Below are positions 22,497 through 30,083 of a stretch of 64,000 nt of DNA, piece by piece. The translations under genes were made by a program, and so were the position numbers. Under the pieces are notes generated by a model. That model saw only the letters and a program-made list of their open reading frames with translations, was not told the origin of the DNA and searched no databases. Position 1 is the first letter of the stretch, and the number at the start of each line of letters is the position of its first letter. Where the stretch lies: NCBI GenBank assembly GCA_000471925.1, contig CP006668.1:1302001-1366000 (forward strand). Direction: 5' to 3'. The stretch comes from Ralstonia pickettii DTP0602. Lineage in GTDB: Bacteria; Pseudomonadota; Gammaproteobacteria; Burkholderiales; Burkholderiaceae.

Positions 22497-23858
22497 TCAG
22501 ATCACCGTGGCCAGCCCCAGCGTCAGCAGCAGCGCCACCACCGAGATGATGGTTTCGCACACCGACCAGGTCTGGAAGGTCTGGGTCACGGTCATGTTGA
22601 AGTACTCCTTGACCAGCCAGAAGCCGCCGTCGTTGACGTGCGACAGGATCAGCGAGCCCGCACCGGTGGTCAGCACCAGCAGCTCGGGCCGGGTGCCCGG
22701 CACGCTGGCCGCGATCGGCGCGACGATGCCGGCGGCGGTGGTCATGGCCACCGTGGCCGAGCCGGTGGCGATACGGATCATCACCGCCACCAGCCAGCCC
22801 AGCACCAGCACTGACACGTTGGCGCCGGTGGCGACGTCGACGATGGCGGTGGAGATGCCCGAGTCGCGCAGGATGCGGCCGAAGCCACCGCCGGCGCCGA
22901 CCACCAGCGTGATGATGGCGGTGGGCGCCACGCACTCGTTGGTGAACTTGAGGATCATCTCGCGATTGAAGCCGCGCGCCTTGCCGAAGGTGTAGAAGCT
23001 CACCAGCGCGGCGATCAGCAGTGCCATCACCGAGTTGCCGATCAGTTTCAGGAAGTCGTTGGCAAAGGTCTTGGGCGTAGTGAACACGTCCGCCCAGCTG
23101 CCGATCAGCATCAGGATCACCGGCAGCAGGATGGTGAACACCGTGATGCCAAAGCTCGGCAGATGGTGCGATTCCTTGACGCTCTCATCCTCTTCGGTGA
23201 ACTGGTCGGCCAGCGGGTTGACCTCGGGCAGCTTGACGTAGCGGTCCATCAGCTTGGCGAACAGCGGGCCGGCGAGCGCCGCCGTCGGGATGCCGACGAT
23301 CAGCGCATACATGATGGTCTTGCCGATATCGGCGCCATACGCCGTCACAGCCAGCAGCGCGGCCGGGTGCGGCGGGATCAGGCCGTGCACCACCGACAGG
23401 CCGGCCACCATCGGGATGCCGACCAGCACCATCGACGTGCCGGTACGCTTGGCCACGTTGAAGGCGATCGGCACCAGCAGCACGAAGCCCACCTCGAAGA
23501 ACACCGGCAGGCCGACGATAAAGGCGATGGTCGCCATTGCCCAATGGACGTTCTTTTCGCCGAAGAAATCGATCAGCGTGCGCGCGATGCGCTCGGCGCC
23601 GCCGGACTCGGCCATCATCTTGCCGAGCATGGTGCCCAGGCCCACCACCAGCGCAATATGGCCGAGCGTGCCGCCGACACCGGCTTCAAAGGACTTGACG
23701 ATGTCGCCCATCGGCATGCCCACGGCAAAGCCGAGCAGCACCGAGACGACGACCAGGGTAATGAAGGGGTTGAGCTTGTAGCGCGCGATCAGCACCACGA
23801 GGGCGATCACGGCGATCAGCGCATACACCAAGAGCGTGGTTCCGGTGACGGCACCCAT
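22497..23858 (-). CDS. GntP-family gluconate/sugar-acid:H+ symporter
   Basis: 453-residue permease with 12-14 hydrophobic segments, full length for GntP. Typical segments are KLNPFITLVVVSVLLGFAVG, GLGTMLGKMMAESGGAERIA, VGLPVFFEVGFVLLVPI, HGLIPPHPAALLAV and, near the C-terminus, LILSHVNDGGFWLVKEYF. The family takes up gluconate or related aldonates, and some members D-serine or other small acids. It is last in the rpiR-led minus-strand unit, separated from the RidA gene by 219 bases holding REP-like repeats. By context it may import the substrate of this catabolic locus. Confidence 0.93.
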   Translation of the reverse strand: MGAVTGTTLLVYALIAVIALVVLIARYKLNPFITLVVVSVLLGFAVGMPMGDIVKSFEAGVGGTLGHIALVVGLGTMLGKMMAESGGAERIARTLIDFFGEKNVHWAMATIAFIVGLPVFFEVGFVLLVPIAFNVAKRTGTSMVLVGIPMVAGLSVVHGLIPPHPAALLAVTAYGADIGKTIMYALIVGIPTAALAGPLFAKLMDRYVKLPEVNPLADQFTEEDESVKESHHLPSFGITVFTILLPVILMLIGSWADVFTTPKTFANDFLKLIGNSVMALLIAALVSFYTFGKARGFNREMILKFTNECVAPTAIITLVVGAGGGFGRILRDSGISTAIVDVATGANVSVLVLGWLVAVMIRIATGSATVAMTTAAGIVAPIAASVPGTRPELLVLTTGAGSLILSHVNDGGFWLVKEYFNMTVTQTFQTWSVCETIISVVALLLTLGLATVI

Positions 23859-23921
23859 ATTGTCTCCTTGCGTGGAAAAAAAGCCGCTTGTGGCGGCAGC
23901 GATTCAGGTTTTTTGGTTTTC

Positions 23922-23966
23922 TCCCCTCTCCCGCAAGCGGGAGAGGGGCGGGGGAGAGGGCAGGAG
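23922..23966. repeat. REP-like palindromic repeat between gntP-like and ridA-like genes
   Basis: Contains CTCTCCCGCAAGCGGGAGAG followed by GGGCGGGGGAGAGGG, nearly the same unit as at 4819-4860 and 4689-4732. Confidence 0.72.
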
Positions 23967-24000
23967 GTTCCATGGCCGGCGGCGCATCATGGATACGCCC

Positions 24001-24042
24001 GGCCCTCTCCCACGGCCCCTCTCCCATTTCATGGGAGAGGGG
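24001..24042. repeat. REP-like palindromic repeat, inverse partner
   Basis: Inverse copy with the hairpin CTCTCCCATTTCATGGGAGAG. It forms a facing pair with 23922-23966. Confidence 0.7.
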
Positions 24043-24077
24043 CACACACCCTCAGCGATGGCAAGCAGGCAGTAGGC

Positions 24078-24470
24078 TCAGGCCGCCGGCTTCTTGTAGG
24101 CGATGCAGTCCACTTCGACCTTGCAGTCCACCACCATGCTCGACTGCACGCAGGCGCGCGCCGGGGGATTGGCGCCGAAGTATTCCTTGAAGATCCTGTT
24201 GAACGAGGCGAAGTCGCGCGCATCGTCCAGCCACACGCCGCAGCGCACCACGTGCTCGGGGCCGTAGCCGGCCTCGGCCAGGATCGCCAGCACGTTCTTG
24301 ATGGCCTGGTGGGTCTGCGCGACGATGCCGCCGTCGATGACTTCGCCGTTGACCATCGGCACCTGGCCGGAAACGTAGAGCCAGCCGTCGGCCGCGACCG
24401 CGCGGGCAAAGGGCATGTGCTGGCCGCCGGTGCCGGTGCCACCTTCGACGCCGAATCGTTTGATATCCAT
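24078..24470 (-). CDS. RidA/YjgF-family enamine/imine deaminase
   Basis: 130 residues. N-terminal KRFGVEGGTGTGGQHMPFAR is followed by YVSGQVPMVNGEV and GGIVAQTHQAIKNVLAILAEAG. The conserved arginine of RidA proteins is probably in HVVRCGVWL, and the C-terminus reads SSMVVDCKVEVDCIAY. RidA proteins hydrolyse reactive enamines and imines made by PLP enzymes. A DSD1-like PLP deaminase is encoded across the divergent promoter, so a housekeeping role for that enzyme's product is likely. It sits 51 bases downstream of the D-aminoacylase gene. Confidence 0.9.
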   Translation of the reverse strand: MDIKRFGVEGGTGTGGQHMPFARAVAADGWLYVSGQVPMVNGEVIDGGIVAQTHQAIKNVLAILAEAGYGPEHVVRCGVWLDDARDFASFNRIFKEYFGANPPARACVQSSMVVDCKVEVDCIAYKKPAA

Positions 24471-24521
24471 GGGAACTCCTGGAATTTGTTGCAGGGAAAA
24501 GATTGAGAAAGGAAGCCGGGG

Positions 24522-25976
24522 TCAGGCCGCGCCGCGCGCCAGGAACCTGCCGGCGCGCACGCCGGTGCTCTGGCGCTGCTGCCATGACAGCTCGCCGTTG
24601 ACCCAGACCGCGGCAATGCCTTCGGCCGGTTGCATCGGATCGGTGAAGCTGGCCGCGTCGCGGATGGTGGTCGCGTCGAACAGCACCAGGTCGGCCCAGT
24701 AGCCTTCGCGCACGAAGCCGCGCTGGTGCAGGCCGAAACGCTCGGCGGACAGGCCGGTCATCTTGTTGACGGCCACCGTCAGCGGGAACAGCTCGCGGTC
24801 GCGCGCATAGTGGCCCAGCACGCGCGGGAACGCGCCCCACAGGCGCGGATGCGGCAGCGGGTCGTTGGGCAGGCCGTCGGAGCCGATCACAGTGGCGGGG
24901 TGGCTCAGGATGCGGTCGACGTCGGCATCCTCCATGCAGTGGTAGACCGCGCCCGCGGGCATCAGCCGGCGCGCGGCCTCGTGCAGGTCGACCTGCCATT
25001 CGGCGGCGATATCGGCCAGCAGCCGGCCGCCCATCTCGGGCGCGCCTTCGGACCAGGTCACCATGATGTCGAAGTCGCTGGTGACCTGCTTCAGGTCCAG
25101 CGTGGACGAGCTGGCGGTGTAGGGGTAGCAGTCGCAGCCGACCGGCTGCCAGCGTTGCGCGCCGTCGAGGGCGTCGAGCACCTCGGTGCTGCGGCCCCAG
25201 TTGTCGACCCCCGCGCATTTCAGGTGCGAGATCACCACCGGCACGCGCGCATGGCGGCCGATGCGGAAGGCTTCGTCCATCGCGTCCAGGATCTCGGCGA
25301 ACTCGCTGCGCAGGTGGGTGGCATAGAGCGCGCCGGCATTGGCCAGCGGTTCGGCCAGCGCCAGCACTTCCTCCGTCGGCGCGCTGAAGGCGTTGGCGTA
25401 GGCCAGGCCGGTGGACAGGCCGAGCGCGCCGTGCTGCAGCGCTTCTTCCAGCTGCGCACGCATCGCCGCGATCTCGGCCGGTGTGGCGGCGCGGTCGAAG
25501 CGGTCCATATGGTTGCTGCGCAGCGCGGTGTGGCCGACCAGCGCGGCGACATTGACAGCGGGCTGCGCGGCCTCGACCGCATCGACGTAGGCCTTGAAAT
25601 CCGGGTAGCGGAAGGCGTCGGCATGGCCGAGCAGGTTCATCGGGTCGGGCGGCTCGCCGGCCAGCGTCACCGGCGCGGCGCTGATGCCGCAGTTGCCGAC
25701 GATTACCGTGGTGACGCCCTGCGACAGCTTGGGCGTCATCTCGGGCTGGCGCACGACGTTGGTATCGTCGTGCGTATGTACGTCGATAAAGCCCGGCGCA
25801 AGCACCAGGTCGTGGCCTTCGACCACGTGCGCGGCGGCATCGGGATCGATCGCGCCGGCTTCATCGATGCGCGCGATGCGGCCGTCGCGCAGCGCCACGT
25901 CGGCCAGGCGCGCGGTGGCGCCCGAACCATCGAGCAGCGTCACGCAGCGGATCAGGGTATCGAACAGGTGAGGCAT
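24522..25976 (-). CDS. N-acyl-D-amino-acid deacylase (D-aminoacylase) family amidohydrolase
   Basis: 484 residues from ATG 25976 (GGAG eight bases upstream); a TTG at 25988 is an alternative. Amidohydrolase-fold metal ligands are in APGFIDVHTHDD, followed by TTVIVGNCGIS, then a histidine in THLRSEF and the C-terminal SDGLPNDPLPHPRLWG. The family removes acyl groups from N-acyl-D-amino acids. Its start lies one base after the rpiR stop, so it is tightly coupled to that regulator. In this locus an N-acylated 2-amino-sugar acid is a plausible substrate, but that is inference. Confidence 0.88.
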   Translation of the reverse strand: MPHLFDTLIRCVTLLDGSGATARLADVALRDGRIARIDEAGAIDPDAAAHVVEGHDLVLAPGFIDVHTHDDTNVVRQPEMTPKLSQGVTTVIVGNCGISAAPVTLAGEPPDPMNLLGHADAFRYPDFKAYVDAVEAAQPAVNVAALVGHTALRSNHMDRFDRAATPAEIAAMRAQLEEALQHGALGLSTGLAYANAFSAPTEEVLALAEPLANAGALYATHLRSEFAEILDAMDEAFRIGRHARVPVVISHLKCAGVDNWGRSTEVLDALDGAQRWQPVGCDCYPYTASSSTLDLKQVTSDFDIMVTWSEGAPEMGGRLLADIAAEWQVDLHEAARRLMPAGAVYHCMEDADVDRILSHPATVIGSDGLPNDPLPHPRLWGAFPRVLGHYARDRELFPLTVAVNKMTGLSAERFGLHQRGFVREGYWADLVLFDATTIRDAASFTDPMQPAEGIAAVWVNGELSWQQRQSTGVRAGRFLARGAA

Positions 25977-25977
25977 G

Positions 25978-26883
25978 TCAGTCTCCAAGCGGCTGGCGGC
26001 TGTCAGGGCCGGTGCCGGGGCTGCCTTCGCCGCGGTGGCTGTCCAGCACGTACTTGAGCCGGCGCAGCCGCTCCTTGCTCTGGTCCTGCTGCAGCAGCGC
26101 GCACTGTGTGGCCAGCACGTCCAGCACCATCAGCATCGCGTAGCGCGACGCGGACGGCTTGAAAATGAAATCGGTCTCGAGCGTGCGCACCGGCAGCAGC
26201 ACGTCGGCGCGCGCCGCCAGCGGCGAGCCCAGCGCGGTCACCGCGATCAGCCGCGCGCCGTATTCGCGCGCGATGTCGCAGCTGGCCAGCATCTCCGGCA
26301 CGCGGCCGCTGGCCGAGAACGCCAGCACCACGTCGTCGCGGCTCAATGTCGCCGCCACCATCTTCTGCAGCAGGGCGTCCTGGTAGCTCGCCACCGGCTG
26401 TCCCAGTCGCGCCAGCCGGTGGCGCGCCTCGTCGGCCATGAACGACGAGCCGCCGCCCATGCCAAAAGCGTAGACCATGCGTGCGCCAAGCAACAGGCGC
26501 GCGGCCTGCTCGATGCGCTGCGCATCTATCAGGCCACGATTGACTTCGAGCGCGTTGATGATCTCGGCATGGATGCTGTCGGCCAGCGTGGCCGGGGCTT
26601 CTTCGCCGCCGGGCACGCCGCCCGGCTGCAGGAACCGCGCGCCCACCGCGGTGGCCTGCGCCAGCCGCAGCTTCAGGTCGCGCACGTCGCGGCAACCGAT
26701 CGCCTTGGCAAAGCGGGTCACGCTGGCCTCGCTGACGCCGGCCTTGCGCGCCAGCTCGTTGATGCTGGCGGCGGCCGCGCCGGCCAGGTCTTCCAGCACC
26801 ACCTGCGCGACCTTCTGCTCGGCCAGGCGCAGCGCGGGGCCGCGCTCGGCGATGCGGGTCAGGATGTCGAAGGGGGCGGTCAT
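25978..26883 (-). CDS. RpiR-family transcriptional regulator
   Basis: 301 residues from ATG 26883 (MTAPFDILTRI). N-terminal HTH_6 domain with INELARKAGVSEASVTRFAKAIGC written across residues ~40-63, then a SIS sugar-phosphate-binding domain with VYAFGMGGGSS, VVLAFSASGRVPEML and LIAVTALGSPLAA. RpiR proteins respond to phosphosugars, so a KDG/KDPG-type intermediate is a natural effector here. It heads the minus-strand unit and faces the deaminase-kdgK-eda unit across the 26884-27100 gap. A candidate operator lies at 27047-27064. Confidence 0.93.
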   Translation of the reverse strand: MTAPFDILTRIAERGPALRLAEQKVAQVVLEDLAGAAAASINELARKAGVSEASVTRFAKAIGCRDVRDLKLRLAQATAVGARFLQPGGVPGGEEAPATLADSIHAEIINALEVNRGLIDAQRIEQAARLLLGARMVYAFGMGGGSSFMADEARHRLARLGQPVASYQDALLQKMVAATLSRDDVVLAFSASGRVPEMLASCDIAREYGARLIAVTALGSPLAARADVLLPVRTLETDFIFKPSASRYAMLMVLDVLATQCALLQQDQSKERLRRLKYVLDSHRGEGSPGTGPDSRQPLGD

Positions 26884-27046
26884 GGGCGGGCTGGTCGGGT
26901 CGGAAAGTGGTCCGGGCGCAATGTGGCGGAGTCGGCAGCCCCTGCGCACAGGGGCTATAACAGTGACTGGCGCCGCGTCGCGGACACCAGTCCGGAGGCT
27001 GCCGGGGCACACTTCGGTCCGACTGCGTGTTACTTTATAACAAGGA

Positions 27047-27064
27047 TGAAATATCTTATTTTCA
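27047..27064. promoter_or_regulatory. Candidate RpiR operator in the divergent promoter
   Basis: TGAAATATCTTATTTTCA is an imperfect palindrome with TGAAA/TTTCA arms in a strikingly AT-rich island between rpiR and the deaminase gene. RpiR proteins commonly bind AT-rich palindromes of this kind. It lies 37-54 bases upstream of the deaminase start and could overlap its promoter. Confidence 0.5.
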
Positions 27065-27100
27065 GGGCTATCATTACGTCAATCAGATTTTTTCAGGGTG

Positions 27101-28375
27101 ATGACAAGGATGCGTGAAATAAAGTATCAGGCCGGCGTGATCGATCCACTCAACAAGGCGCTGGGCCGGATGGAAGCCCCGCTGGCCCCGGATGCCGGCC
27201 AGACCGGCTGGAGCCTGCTGCAGGAAGAACTGAGCCTGCCGGCCGCGGTGCTTTATGAAGACCGGCTTGCGCACAACCTGGAATGGATGCGCCGCTTCAT
27301 GAACGAATACGGCGTGCTGCTTGCGCCGCATGGCAAGACCACGATGGCGCCCAAGCTGTTCGCGCGCCAACTGGGCGCGGGCGCGTGGGGCATCACGCTC
27401 GCCACCGCGCACCAGACCGCCGCGGCACACGCGCATGGCGTCAAGCGCGTATTGATGGCCAACCAGCTGGTGGGCCGGCGCAATATGGAAATCATCGCGG
27501 ACCTGCTGCGCGATCCGGAGTTCGAGTTCTTCGCGCTGGTGGATTCGGCCGCGCTGGTCGACCAGCTCGGCAAGTTCTTCAGCGAGCGCGGGCAGAAGTT
27601 GCAGGTCTTGCTGGAGCTTGGCGTGGAAGGTGGGCGCACCGGCGTGCGCGATGACGCCCAGCAGCAGGCCGTGCTCGACGCACTGGCGCGCTGGCCGGAT
27701 GCGCTGTCGCTGGCGGGCGTGGAGATCTATGAAGGCGTGCTGCAGGAAGAGGCCGATATCCGCCGCTTCCTGCAGCGTACCGTCGCGGTCACGCGGCAAC
27801 TCGCAAAGGACGGCCGCTTTGGCCGCAGCCCGGTGGTGATGTCGGGCGCGGGGTCGGCCTGGTACGACGTGGTCGCCGAGGAATTCGCGCGCACCGACAT
27901 CGGCGCGCCGATCGACATCGTGCTGCGCCCGGGCTGCTACCTGACGCACGACGTGGGCATCTACCGCGCCGCGCAGCAGCGCATCCTGGCCAGCAACCCG
28001 GTCGCGCAGAAGATGCGCGAAGGCCTGCTGCCGGCGCTGCAGCTATGGGCCTATGTGCAGTCGATCCCCGAGCCGGAGCGCGCCATCATCGGCATGGGCA
28101 AGCGCGACGCGGCCTTCGACGCCGGCATGCCGATCCCGGCGCGGCTGTATCGCCCGGGCAGCGAGGCGCCGGTGGATGTGCCTGCGCACTGGGAGGTCAC
28201 CGGCATGATGGACCAGCACGCGTACCTGAAGATCCAGCCGGGCGACGACGTGCAGGTCGGCGACATGATCGCCTTCGATATCTCGCACCCGTGCCTGACC
28301 TTCGACAAGTGGCGCCATATCCCGGTACTCGACCGCGACCTGCGCGTGATCGACATCGTGCAAACCTTCTTCTGA
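27101..28375 (+). CDS. DSD1-like PLP-dependent amino acid deaminase / D-threonine aldolase family
   Basis: About 424 residues, with an alanine-racemase-type PLP barrel and a C-terminal D-serine-dehydratase-like domain. The PLP lysine is in LLAPHGKTTMAPKLF. Further marks are VLLELGVEGGRTGVR, VMSGAGSAWYDV and the C-terminal metal-site-like FDISHPCLTFDKWRHIPVL. Family members eliminate ammonia from D-serine or D-threonine, or cleave D-threonine. ATG 27101 is taken as start; GTG 27098 and ATG 27110 are alternatives. It is followed 13 bases later by a KDG kinase gene and then eda, so it may deaminate a 2-amino-2-deoxy-aldonate to KDG. The fold is certain, the substrate is not. Confidence 0.85.
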   Translation: MTRMREIKYQAGVIDPLNKALGRMEAPLAPDAGQTGWSLLQEELSLPAAVLYEDRLAHNLEWMRRFMNEYGVLLAPHGKTTMAPKLFARQLGAGAWGITLATAHQTAAAHAHGVKRVLMANQLVGRRNMEIIADLLRDPEFEFFALVDSAALVDQLGKFFSERGQKLQVLLELGVEGGRTGVRDDAQQQAVLDALARWPDALSLAGVEIYEGVLQEEADIRRFLQRTVAVTRQLAKDGRFGRSPVVMSGAGSAWYDVVAEEFARTDIGAPIDIVLRPGCYLTHDVGIYRAAQQRILASNPVAQKMREGLLPALQLWAYVQSIPEPERAIIGMGKRDAAFDAGMPIPARLYRPGSEAPVDVPAHWEVTGMMDQHAYLKIQPGDDVQVGDMIAFDISHPCLTFDKWRHIPVLDRDLRVIDIVQTFF

Positions 28376-28388
28376 GGTGGGCTGCCCC

Positions 28389-29324
28389 ATGAGCATCGAT
28401 ATCCTGGCCTATGGCGAGCCGCTGGTGGAGTTCAACCAGCTGCCCGACGATCCGTCGCGCTACCTGCAAGGCTTTGGCGGCGACACTTCCAACTTCTGCA
28501 TCGCGGCCGCGCGCCAGGGTGCCAGCACGGGCTATATCTGTGCCGTTGGTGCCGATACCTTCGGCGAGCGGCTGCGCGCGCTGTGGACGCAGGAGCGGGT
28601 CGATACGCGCAACGTGTACGTCGACCCGGGCGCGCCGACCGGCGTCTACTTTGTCACGCACGACAACCACGGCCACCGTTTCGACTACCTGCGCGAAGGC
28701 TCGGCCGCGAGCCGCTACCAGCATGAGCAGTTGCCGCTGGGCGCCATTGCCGCGGCACGCTACCTGCATCTGTCCGGCATCAGCCTGGCGATCAGCACCA
28801 GCGCCTGCGATGCCGGCCTGGCGGCGATGGAGCATGCGCGCAAGGCCGGGGTCAAGGTTTCGCTCGACACCAACCTGCGGCTGCGGCTGTGGTCGCTGGC
28901 CCGCGCGCGCGGCATCATGCGCGAGGCCTTTGCGTTCACCGACGTGTGCCTGCCGAGCTGGGACGACATCACGGTGCTGACCGGGCTGGACGACCGCGAT
29001 GCCATCGCGGACTACCTGCTTGGCTGCGGCATCGGACTGGTCGCGCTGAAACTGGGCGAAGAGGGCGCTTATGTCGCCACGCCTGAATCGCGCACGCTGG
29101 TGCCGCCGTACCCGGTCAAGCCGGTCGATGCCACCGGCGCGGGCGACTGCTTCGGCGGCAGCTTTATCGCGCGCCTGTCCGCGGGTGCCGATCCTTTCGA
29201 GGCGGCGCGCTACGCCAACGTGGCGGCGGCGCTGTCCACCACCGGCTACGGCGCGGTGGCGCCGATCCCCGATTCGCAGACTGTGCTGGCACGCCTGGCG
29301 CAGTCGGTGTCGGTGATCGCGTGA
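28389..29324 (+). CDS. kdgK: 2-dehydro-3-deoxygluconokinase (PfkB family)
   Basis: 311-residue ribokinase-fold sugar kinase. Its start is ATG 28389 (MSIDILAYGEPLVEFNQ). The substrate side has GFGGDTSNFCIAAARQG, and the PfkB signature 2 with catalytic Asp is PVDATGAGDCFGGSF. KDG kinases phosphorylate 2-keto-3-deoxygluconate to KDPG, and the aldolase for KDPG is encoded 56 bases downstream. It lies close behind the deaminase gene in the same transcription unit. Confidence 0.92.
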   Translation: MSIDILAYGEPLVEFNQLPDDPSRYLQGFGGDTSNFCIAAARQGASTGYICAVGADTFGERLRALWTQERVDTRNVYVDPGAPTGVYFVTHDNHGHRFDYLREGSAASRYQHEQLPLGAIAAARYLHLSGISLAISTSACDAGLAAMEHARKAGVKVSLDTNLRLRLWSLARARGIMREAFAFTDVCLPSWDDITVLTGLDDRDAIADYLLGCGIGLVALKLGEEGAYVATPESRTLVPPYPVKPVDATGAGDCFGGSFIARLSAGADPFEAARYANVAAALSTTGYGAVAPIPDSQTVLARLAQSVSVIA

Positions 29325-29380
29325 GCCGACATCCCTGAAATCTCTGCGTTTTTTTAACCATTCCTCCCGAGACAGCCACC

Positions 29381-30025
29381 ATGCAAAACCAGACTTCCCC
29401 GCTGCTCCAACGCCTGGCCGACGTGCCGGTGATTCCCGTGCTGGAGTTCCACTCGGTCGACGAAGCCCTGCACGTGAGCGAGGCGCTGGTCGCCGGCGGC
29501 CTGCCGCTGCTGGAAATCACGCTGCGCACGCCGGTGGCGCTGGAGGCGATCAAGGCCGTGGCCGCCGCGCTGCCGCAGGCTTGCGTGGGGGCGGGCACGG
29601 TGCTCACCGTCGATCAGCTGCACGCCGTGCGCGGCGCGGGGGCGCAGTTTGCCGTGTCGCCGGGGCTGACGCCGGCGCTGGCCGCGGGCGCGCAAGGGGC
29701 GGGGATCTCGCTGCTGCCGGGCGTGGCCACCGCCAGCGAGGCGATGGCGGCGCTGGAAGCCGGCTTCACCTTCCTCAAGTTCTTCCCGGCGCAGGCCGCG
29801 GGCGGGGTGCCGATGCTCAAGTCGCTGGGCGGCCCGCTGCCGCAGTTGCGCTTCTGCCCGACCGGCGGCATCGACGTCGCGCTGGCGCCGTCCTACCTGG
29901 CGCTGCCCAACGTGGTGTGCGTGGGCGGTTCGTGGGTGGTGCCCAAGGATGCCGTCGCCAGCGGCGACTGGGGCCGTATCCGTACGCTGGCCGAGCAGGC
30001 GCGGGCGTTGCGCAAGCAAGGCTGA
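29381..30025 (+). CDS. eda: KDPG/KHG aldolase
   Basis: 214-residue class I aldolase that splits 2-keto-3-deoxy-6-phosphogluconate into pyruvate and glyceraldehyde 3-phosphate. Recognised segments are [31 protein letters not shown], the Schiff-base lysine in [12 protein letters not shown], and [12 protein letters not shown]. It is the last gene of the deaminase-kdgK-eda unit and is followed by a strong hairpin terminator. Confidence 0.95.
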
Positions 30026-30053: not shown

Positions 30054-30083
30054 AAAACGGCACGCGCTGGCGTGCCGTTTTTT
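30054..30083 (+). terminator. Rho-independent terminator after eda
   Basis: Perfect stem AAAACGGCACG / CGTGCCGTTTT with a six-base loop, followed by further T residues. The A-run on the left makes it usable on both strands, which suits the convergent entericidin gene. Confidence 0.88.

Follow-up and report, generated by a model that had tools for sequence, protein, structure and literature searches.

A probable Cupriavidus version of the cytoplasmic ong pathway core in Ralstonia pickettii DTP0602

Seven intact open genes at positions 22497-30025 of a 64,000-nucleotide stretch of Ralstonia pickettii DTP0602 DNA (GCA_000471925.1, contig CP006668.1, positions 1,302,001 to 1,366,000; hereafter the window) very probably encode the cytoplasmic core of a Cupriavidus-type ong pathway, which breaks down N-acetyl-D-glucosaminate (GlcNAc1A). 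The genome comprises 8.13 Mb in three contigs, with the window on contig 2; the proteins and loci nearest to those of the window are, where named, from Cupriavidus. Open reading frame (ORF) and family scans (Pfam, NCBIfam) place the genes in two units. The minus-strand unit encodes, in order of transcription, an RpiR-type regulator, a D-aminoacylase-type amidohydrolase, RidA and a GntP permease; the plus-strand unit encodes a DSD1-type pyridoxal phosphate (PLP) enzyme, a PfkB kinase and an aldolase (Eda) of 2-keto-3-deoxy-6-phosphogluconate (KDPG). A preliminary description of the window had reported the same families at the same positions, and Pfam and NCBIfam agree; the units that it called facing are in fact divergent, lying back to back. 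The assignment draws on gene content, orthology, active-site residues, linkage and a conserved palindrome, from which we infer function in this organism, the importer substrate, the operator and the effector.

Relation to the described ong pathway

Jiang et al. (2022; PMC9537276) described an eight-gene ong (oxidative chitin utilization) cluster in Pseudoalteromonas prydzensis ACAM 620. In that pathway the D-aminoacylase-like OngB deacetylates GlcNAc1A, the D-amino-acid-deaminase-like OngC converts glucosaminate to 2-keto-3-deoxygluconate (KDG), and KdgK phosphorylates KDG; OngD, a RidA protein, is required for growth, and the MurR/RpiR-family OngR represses the ongCRBD and ongOT-1 operons. 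These reactions and this repression are thus demonstrated in relatives of the window genes. Versions of the cluster in Vibrio, Klebsiella and Serratia add kdgA, and Achromobacter piechaudii is the one betaproteobacterium named with a complete pathway, including a lytic polysaccharide monooxygenase (LPMO) (PMC9537276). The preliminary description held that no described pathway has exactly this enzyme set; the ong cluster, with RidA, OngB, OngC, KdgK, OngR and in some lineages kdgA, is such a pathway.

The window locus shares with the P. prydzensis cluster OngB, OngC, OngD, KdgK, OngR and the order of reactions. The two differ in operon layout and in the importer, which is the SSS-type OngIT in P. 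prydzensis and a GntP permease here. The P. prydzensis cluster also contains the GH20 enzyme OngA and the TonB receptor OngOT-1, neither of which lies within the window locus, and the organism has a working LPMO and chitinases. A word search of the results and discussion of PMC9537276 finds neither Cupriavidus, Burkholderia, GntP, operator nor binding site, and no description of a GntP version or an OngR operator was found in the literature outside most subscription journals.

In the proposed scheme GntP would import the aldonate, OngB, with its zinc D-aminoacylase fold, would remove acetate from GlcNAc1A, and OngC would use PLP to take ammonia from D-glucosaminate, yielding KDG, with RidA assisting the pathway. 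KdgK would then convert KDG to KDPG, and Eda would split KDPG into pyruvate and glyceraldehyde 3-phosphate. OngR would exert repression at a palindrome between the divergent units, and an intermediate, most likely KDPG, would lift it. The same sequence of deacylation, deamination to KDG, phosphorylation and cleavage, with GlcNAc1A as the example, had been put forward in the preliminary description and is backed by orthology to assayed enzymes and by active-site residues.

Parts of this gene set have appeared in Cupriavidus before. A deaminase and a kinase were tied to glucosaminate in 2010 (PMC2842291, excerpt) and 2013 (PMC3734047, excerpt). The Cupriavidus necator H16 cluster with kdgK and eda (cluster 3, H16_B1211-B1213; PMC3734047) and the JMP134 glucosaminate genes (PMC2842291) are related known genes, set beside the window genes by their description; H16_B1213 is named KDPG aldolase in the accessible part of PMC9636797. 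The accessible passages on H16 and JMP134 name neither deacylase, RidA, permease nor regulator. An Aeromonas study reports OngB and OngC as only distant or none (PMC11653859, excerpt), and a Vibrio chitin paper adds little (PMC11906056, excerpt). The chemistry is already known; the locus is distinguished by its exchanged importer, its lack of a front end, the captured sole Eda and the conserved palindrome.

Enzymes of the locus

The deacylase (24522-25976, minus strand; start most likely the ATG at 25976, in an ORF that reaches a TTG at 25988) scores 673 bits against the solved structure 9g5m, which carries only the name amidohydrolase family protein, 534 against P. prydzensis OngB (PpOngB, 9kb1), 467 against the D-aminoacylase 1m7j and 390 against 3gip. 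The structure of PpOngB was solved by Wang et al. (2025; PMC12017989, used here in excerpt; 9kb1, 9kb3). The window protein, 53% identical, has its zinc ligands, catalytic Asp, Ser290-Ser291-Ser292, Gln298, Lys254 and Arg379 (PpOngB numbering). Comparison at the 20 positions that the accessible part of PMC12017989 ties to metal, catalysis, substrate or cavity gives 19 identities, the exception being position 348, Gly in PpOngB and Cys in the window; no difference was found among the 17 residues checked for metal, catalysis or substrate. Among 80 named loci, chosen for similarity as the best 80 of at least 485 deacylase relatives, Gln298 occurs in 80, Ser292 in 78 and Ser290 in 74 (Gly in 6), and position 348 varies freely. 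The signature Thr292 plus Leu/Arg298 of the D-aminoacylases AfDam and BbDam is absent from the window deacylase, which has Ser and Gln there; AfDam shows Arg in the Gln298 column of our sequence alignment and Leu298 by structure in the excerpt of PMC12017989, in either case not Gln. We accordingly classify the window protein as a putative OngB deacetylase of the GlcNAc1A type.

A second D-aminoacylase in the genome (C2:639079-640500) is 46% identical, with an SST motif and Arg in the Gln298 column; its upstream neighbour apparently encodes a binding protein of the tripartite type. Two further deacylases, from Trinickia (L028) and Burkholderia singularis (L032), carry Thr in place of Ser292, a change that lowered PpOngB activity (PMC12017989, excerpt), and their substrate may differ.

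The PLP enzyme (27110-28375, plus strand; start most likely the ATG at 27110) matches PF14031 and Ala_racemase_N, and among solved structures it is closest to 3gwq (632 bits), which bears the name D-serine deaminase. In a tree of 24 sequences, 21 of them hand-picked across lineages from ong-type loci other than that of P. prydzensis, it groups with the OngC proteins of Vibrio, Photobacterium, Serratia and other enterobacteria (42-47% identity). Three PF14031 paralogues from the same genome (26-32% identity), one on a very long branch, lie across a branch with 100/99 support. This placement, in an ong clade of fold type III PLP deaminases, points to an OngC-type glucosaminate deaminase. Elsewhere in the genome, another PF14031 protein (L084, G000 C2:1653757) adjoins an RpiR-type regulator with 93 bits to that of the window.

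The remaining enzymes complete the set: RidA, the KDG kinase (identified by family only) and the MurR/RpiR regulator all lie within the locus, as in ong clusters. The RidA-family protein (24078-24470, minus strand; PF01042, 95 bits) is the OngD counterpart. The PfkB-family kinase (28377-29324, plus strand; PF00294), a probable KDG kinase, has 1wye, a KDG kinase, as its best solved structure (132 bits). The KDPG aldolase (29381-30025, plus strand) exceeds the cut-offs of PF01081 (235 bits) and TIGR01182, which places it in the Eda family.

Conservation and linkage

The search of family relatives called for in the preliminary description was made in 150 genomes of the window's family. Deacylase matches at E 1e-100 split into two groups, one with at least 66% identity (99 genomes) and one with at most 50%. 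OngB, defined by the former, occurs in 99 genomes, OngC in 102 and both in 99. The two genes lie within 5 kb in 98 of these 99, divergently in 93 and in the same direction in 5, and on different contigs in the last, so the arrangement is not due to chance. In 14/14 genomes of the window's genus the aldolase gene is 3.3-3.7 kb from OngB, and in 13/13 of genus g24 the distance is about 2 kb; in the two g24-type loci read (L018, L098) eda is on the other side, after GntP.

Across the 80 named loci, under fixed score limits and with some loci ending at contig ends, the linked genes are RpiR (68), OngC (52), RidA (51), GntP (44), KdgK (13) and Eda (9). The GntP importer is found in Cupriavidus, Ralstonia, Herbaspirillum, Collimonas, Glaciimonas, Amantichitinum, Andreprevotia and Cellvibrio and in most Acidobacteria and Pseudomonas loci. 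An SSS importer is present in L054, L065, L068, L073, L080 and L081 (one member scanned), and an oligopeptide-type ABC protein lies near the Achromobacter loci (one scanned). In Paraburkholderia and kin an MFS protein adjoins the locus (one scanned) and would be the importer.

Several loci depart from this pattern. The 26 Pseudomonas loci (among L040-L077) show GntP, RpiR and OngB in 23 cases, and no OngC, RidA, KdgK or Eda in these loci exceeds the limits; these genomes must encode their deaminase elsewhere or use a different one. In L054, L068 and L073 (about 13.5-15 kb) a DgoK-cluster kinase and a distant Eda-like aldolase follow the SSS importer and replace KdgK and Eda; this enterobacterial set could reflect a galacto-series substrate or enzyme replacement. 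In one family genome (G078, C23:262384-269437) a pair of OngB-type genes, 68% and 72% identical to that of the window, sits on opposite strands with about 4 kb between them.

The regulator and a candidate operator

The MurR/RpiR-family regulator (25978-26883, minus strand; HTH_6 and SIS domains), the OngR counterpart, has its most probable start at the ATG at 26883 (301 aa) rather than at the GTG of its ORF; its top NCBIfam match is HexR, at 177 bits below the cut-off of 296. Between the likely start codons at 26883 and 27110 lies a gap of about 226 bp containing a 15-bp palindrome, TGTTACTTTATAACA (27028-27042), the sole match in the window to TGTTA-N5-TAACA with up to one mismatch (0.05 expected). 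At that stringency the palindrome stands upstream of OngC in 34 of 53 regions, the window included, compared with 10 of 1060 single-base shuffles. It is present in the gap of 36 of the 46 named loci in which OngC is divergent to its partner, and 39 sites fall in 19.7 kb of divergent gap as against 4 in 853 kb elsewhere; all these counts come from related, hence not independent, loci. In the alignment of divergent-gap DNA, the L005 and L006 sequences are too short to include the palindrome, and the counts derive from other motif scans. Gammaproteobacterial clusters carry it too, among them L065, L073, L080 and L081 with their SSS importer; L071 (Vibrio penaeicida) has a site and no RpiR above the limit.

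The palindrome is a good candidate for the OngR operator. It is similar in build to the sites of HexR (TTGT-N7-8-ACAA) and RccR (a 15-bp TGTAGT-type palindrome), two KDPG-responsive Pseudomonas regulators of the RpiR family (PMC5489143, excerpt). KDPG sensing by the window regulator is plausible: the breakdown of fructose and that of glucosaminate have KDPG in common, and on fructose H16 cluster 3 is induced in the growth phase (PMC3734047, excerpt), which would fit KDPG as the OngR effector. Near the palindrome, at 27046-27082, are two divergent sigma-70-like promoter matches, which are weak (2 found, 0.9 expected).

Alternative explanations

A number of observations tell against reading the locus as an ong pathway. 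P. prydzensis OngC is also active on D-serine and D-threonine (PMC9537276), so sequence cannot fix the substrate of the deaminase. The top NCBIfam match of the kinase, to KDG/2-keto-3-deoxygalactonate kinase, reaches 187 bits, below the cut-off of 400, and its similarity to the Vibrio and Photobacterium cluster kinases is distant (78-85 bits). The importer is not of the SSS type of the ong cluster, and of the 102 GntP places in the family, 61 (68-84% identity) have eda within 2 kb and ongB at a distance, with 9 near neither. The palindrome is absent from 26/26 Pseudomonas loci and from 10 of the 46 divergent loci, namely five Acidobacteria, one unnamed metagenome-assembled genome (MAG) and Trinickia, all without RpiR above the limit, and, with RpiR, Amantichitinum (a two-mismatch variant), Leclercia (a site before the RpiR gene) and an enterobacterium. 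Finally, the genome has no GH18 or GH20 match, GH19 lying outside the search, and its sole LPMO_10/GbpA-type gene is interrupted by an in-frame TAG, possibly a sequencing error.

The strongest rival, to which we give slightly less than even weight, is a merged gluconate-plus-glucosaminate module, in which GntP is a gluconate permease, Eda serves the whole Entner-Doudoroff pathway, and specificity for amino-sugar acids is confined to OngB, OngC, RidA and KdgK. It differs from the ong reading only on the importer and Eda, so confidence in the two overlaps. The permease (22497-23858, minus strand; PF02447, 545 bits) and Eda are the genome's single GntP and PF01081 matches; a gluconokinase gene sits elsewhere (C1:1166696-1169203), together with one of the two Edd genes that score above the cut-off. 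The permease passes the gluconate:H+ symporter subfamily cut-off of TIGR00791 (495 vs 293 bits) and stays below the gluconate transporter equivalog cut-off of NF011560 (416 of 744 bits). GntP (E 1e-30) occurs in 102 of the 150 family genomes; of the 102 places with at least 68% identity, 19, including 14 of the window's genus, are within 5 kb of OngB only, and 13, all g24, have both OngB (within 5 kb) and Eda (within 2 kb) nearby. In g10, whose GntP is the closest outside the window's genus (83-84%), the gene is linked to eda and distant from ongB in 11/11 cases. The four eda-linked regions read (g10 twice, g25 and g13; L094-L097) resemble the window locus in having Eda, a regulator of the RpiR type and a same-subfamily GntP; they also contain edd, called by Pfam in one and presumed from a motif in the other three, and the parts read include neither OngB, OngC nor the palindrome with up to one mismatch. 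In a tree of 34 permeases, with weak inner support and long Escherichia coli branches, edd-eda-linked members fall unseparated among ong-linked ones. The fructose induction of the H16 kdgK-eda cluster is also in line with a merged module. On the other side, in 23 of the 26 Pseudomonas loci a GntP of this subfamily accompanies OngB, with neither eda nor OngC, and GntP is linked to OngB in four of five Acidobacteria and in Cellvibrio, which ties GntP to the acetylated aldonate.

Given the eda-linked homologues and the permease tree, GntP linkage was dropped as proof of an N-acyl-aldonate importer. Uptake of such a compound, as the preliminary description had it, stays possible for a permease whose closest relatives outside the genus adjoin eda; its cargo may be gluconate, amino aldonates or both. 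Under the ong reading, it is the probable inner-membrane aldonate importer, in place of OngIT.

It is unlikely that the true substrate is free D-glucosaminate or a stereoisomer, such as N-acetyl-D-galactosaminate, with GlcNAc1A a minor one. Three of the 102 genomes with OngC, including one that is 70% complete, lack OngB, the galacto acid is outside the PpOngB substrates listed in the excerpt of PMC12017989, and the DgoK-cluster kinase (PF05035, shown on L021 only) and Eda-like aldolase (61-68 bits) of L054, L068 and L073 would fit the galacto series. The window, by contrast, has a KdgK-like kinase and a classical Eda, as in the gluco series, and the deacylase accompanies the deaminase in 99 of those 102 genomes.

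Catabolism of N-acyl-D-amino acids (N-acetyl-D-serine, N-acetyl-D-threonine), with kinase and aldolase as neighbours for other reasons, has the family names and the D-serine and D-threonine activity of P. prydzensis OngC in its favor and is nevertheless highly improbable, in view of the KDG-kinase-like gene within the deaminase unit and the finding that PpOngB and two homologues deacetylated GlcNAc1A alone among the substrates tested (PMC12017989, excerpt); simple D-amino-acid catabolism was set aside on the OngB-type specificity residues and the separate D-aminoacylase.

Substrate source and implications

The substrate of the ong-type route would come from outside. OngA (GH20) and the outer-membrane receptor OngOT-1 are absent from the locus, the search for receptors being confined to it, and SSS importers, likewise sought in the locus only, are replaced there by GntP. 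The lack of GH18 and GH20 suggests scavenging of the oxidised monomer, and the likeliest role of the host is uptake of GlcNAc1A or glucosaminate made by others. Complete chitin degradation by the host was set aside on the missing GH18 and GH20 matches and the interrupted LPMO, GH19 and nagA lying outside the search. The second piece of the LPMO_10 gene (L002:1282-3168; G000 C1:3938220-3938804) passes its GbpA_2 domain into further sequence that looks like a winged-helix regulator, a domain that Pfam did not name there.

The oxidative chitin sugar core has been presented mainly as a trait of Gammaproteobacteria; the present analysis extends it to Acidobacteria MAGs and to two thirds of the family genomes sampled, and the labels D-aminoacylase and D-serine deaminase are corrected for such genes. 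We tentatively suggest, with less confidence than we give the merged module itself, that in Cupriavidus the GlcNAc1A module has absorbed the sole Eda and the sole GntP, so that a KDPG-sensing OngR would govern, from one palindrome, the exit step of the whole Entner-Doudoroff pathway. If so, cells growing on fructose or gluconate would switch on the breakdown of amino-sugar acids, and without the ongC-kdgK-eda unit they could use no sugar at all. The candidate operator and the swapped importer, together with C. necator H16, provide a setting for the question of KDPG as the OngR effector.

Other features of the region

The gap between ridA and gntP holds a GC-rich inverted-repeat array (23921-24043) with repeated CCCCTCTCCC and GGGAGAGGGG; the repeats resemble repetitive extragenic palindromic elements and possibly lower permease expression. 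A terminator-pattern scan finds 4 sites, no excess over the 4.1 in shuffles, and its hits do not include a terminator-like, perfect 12-bp inverted repeat that lies past eda, at 30054-30081. Four genes neighbouring the locus encode an aldo/keto reductase and MFS-like, EAL-domain and CNNM/CorC proteins, with no evident link to it.

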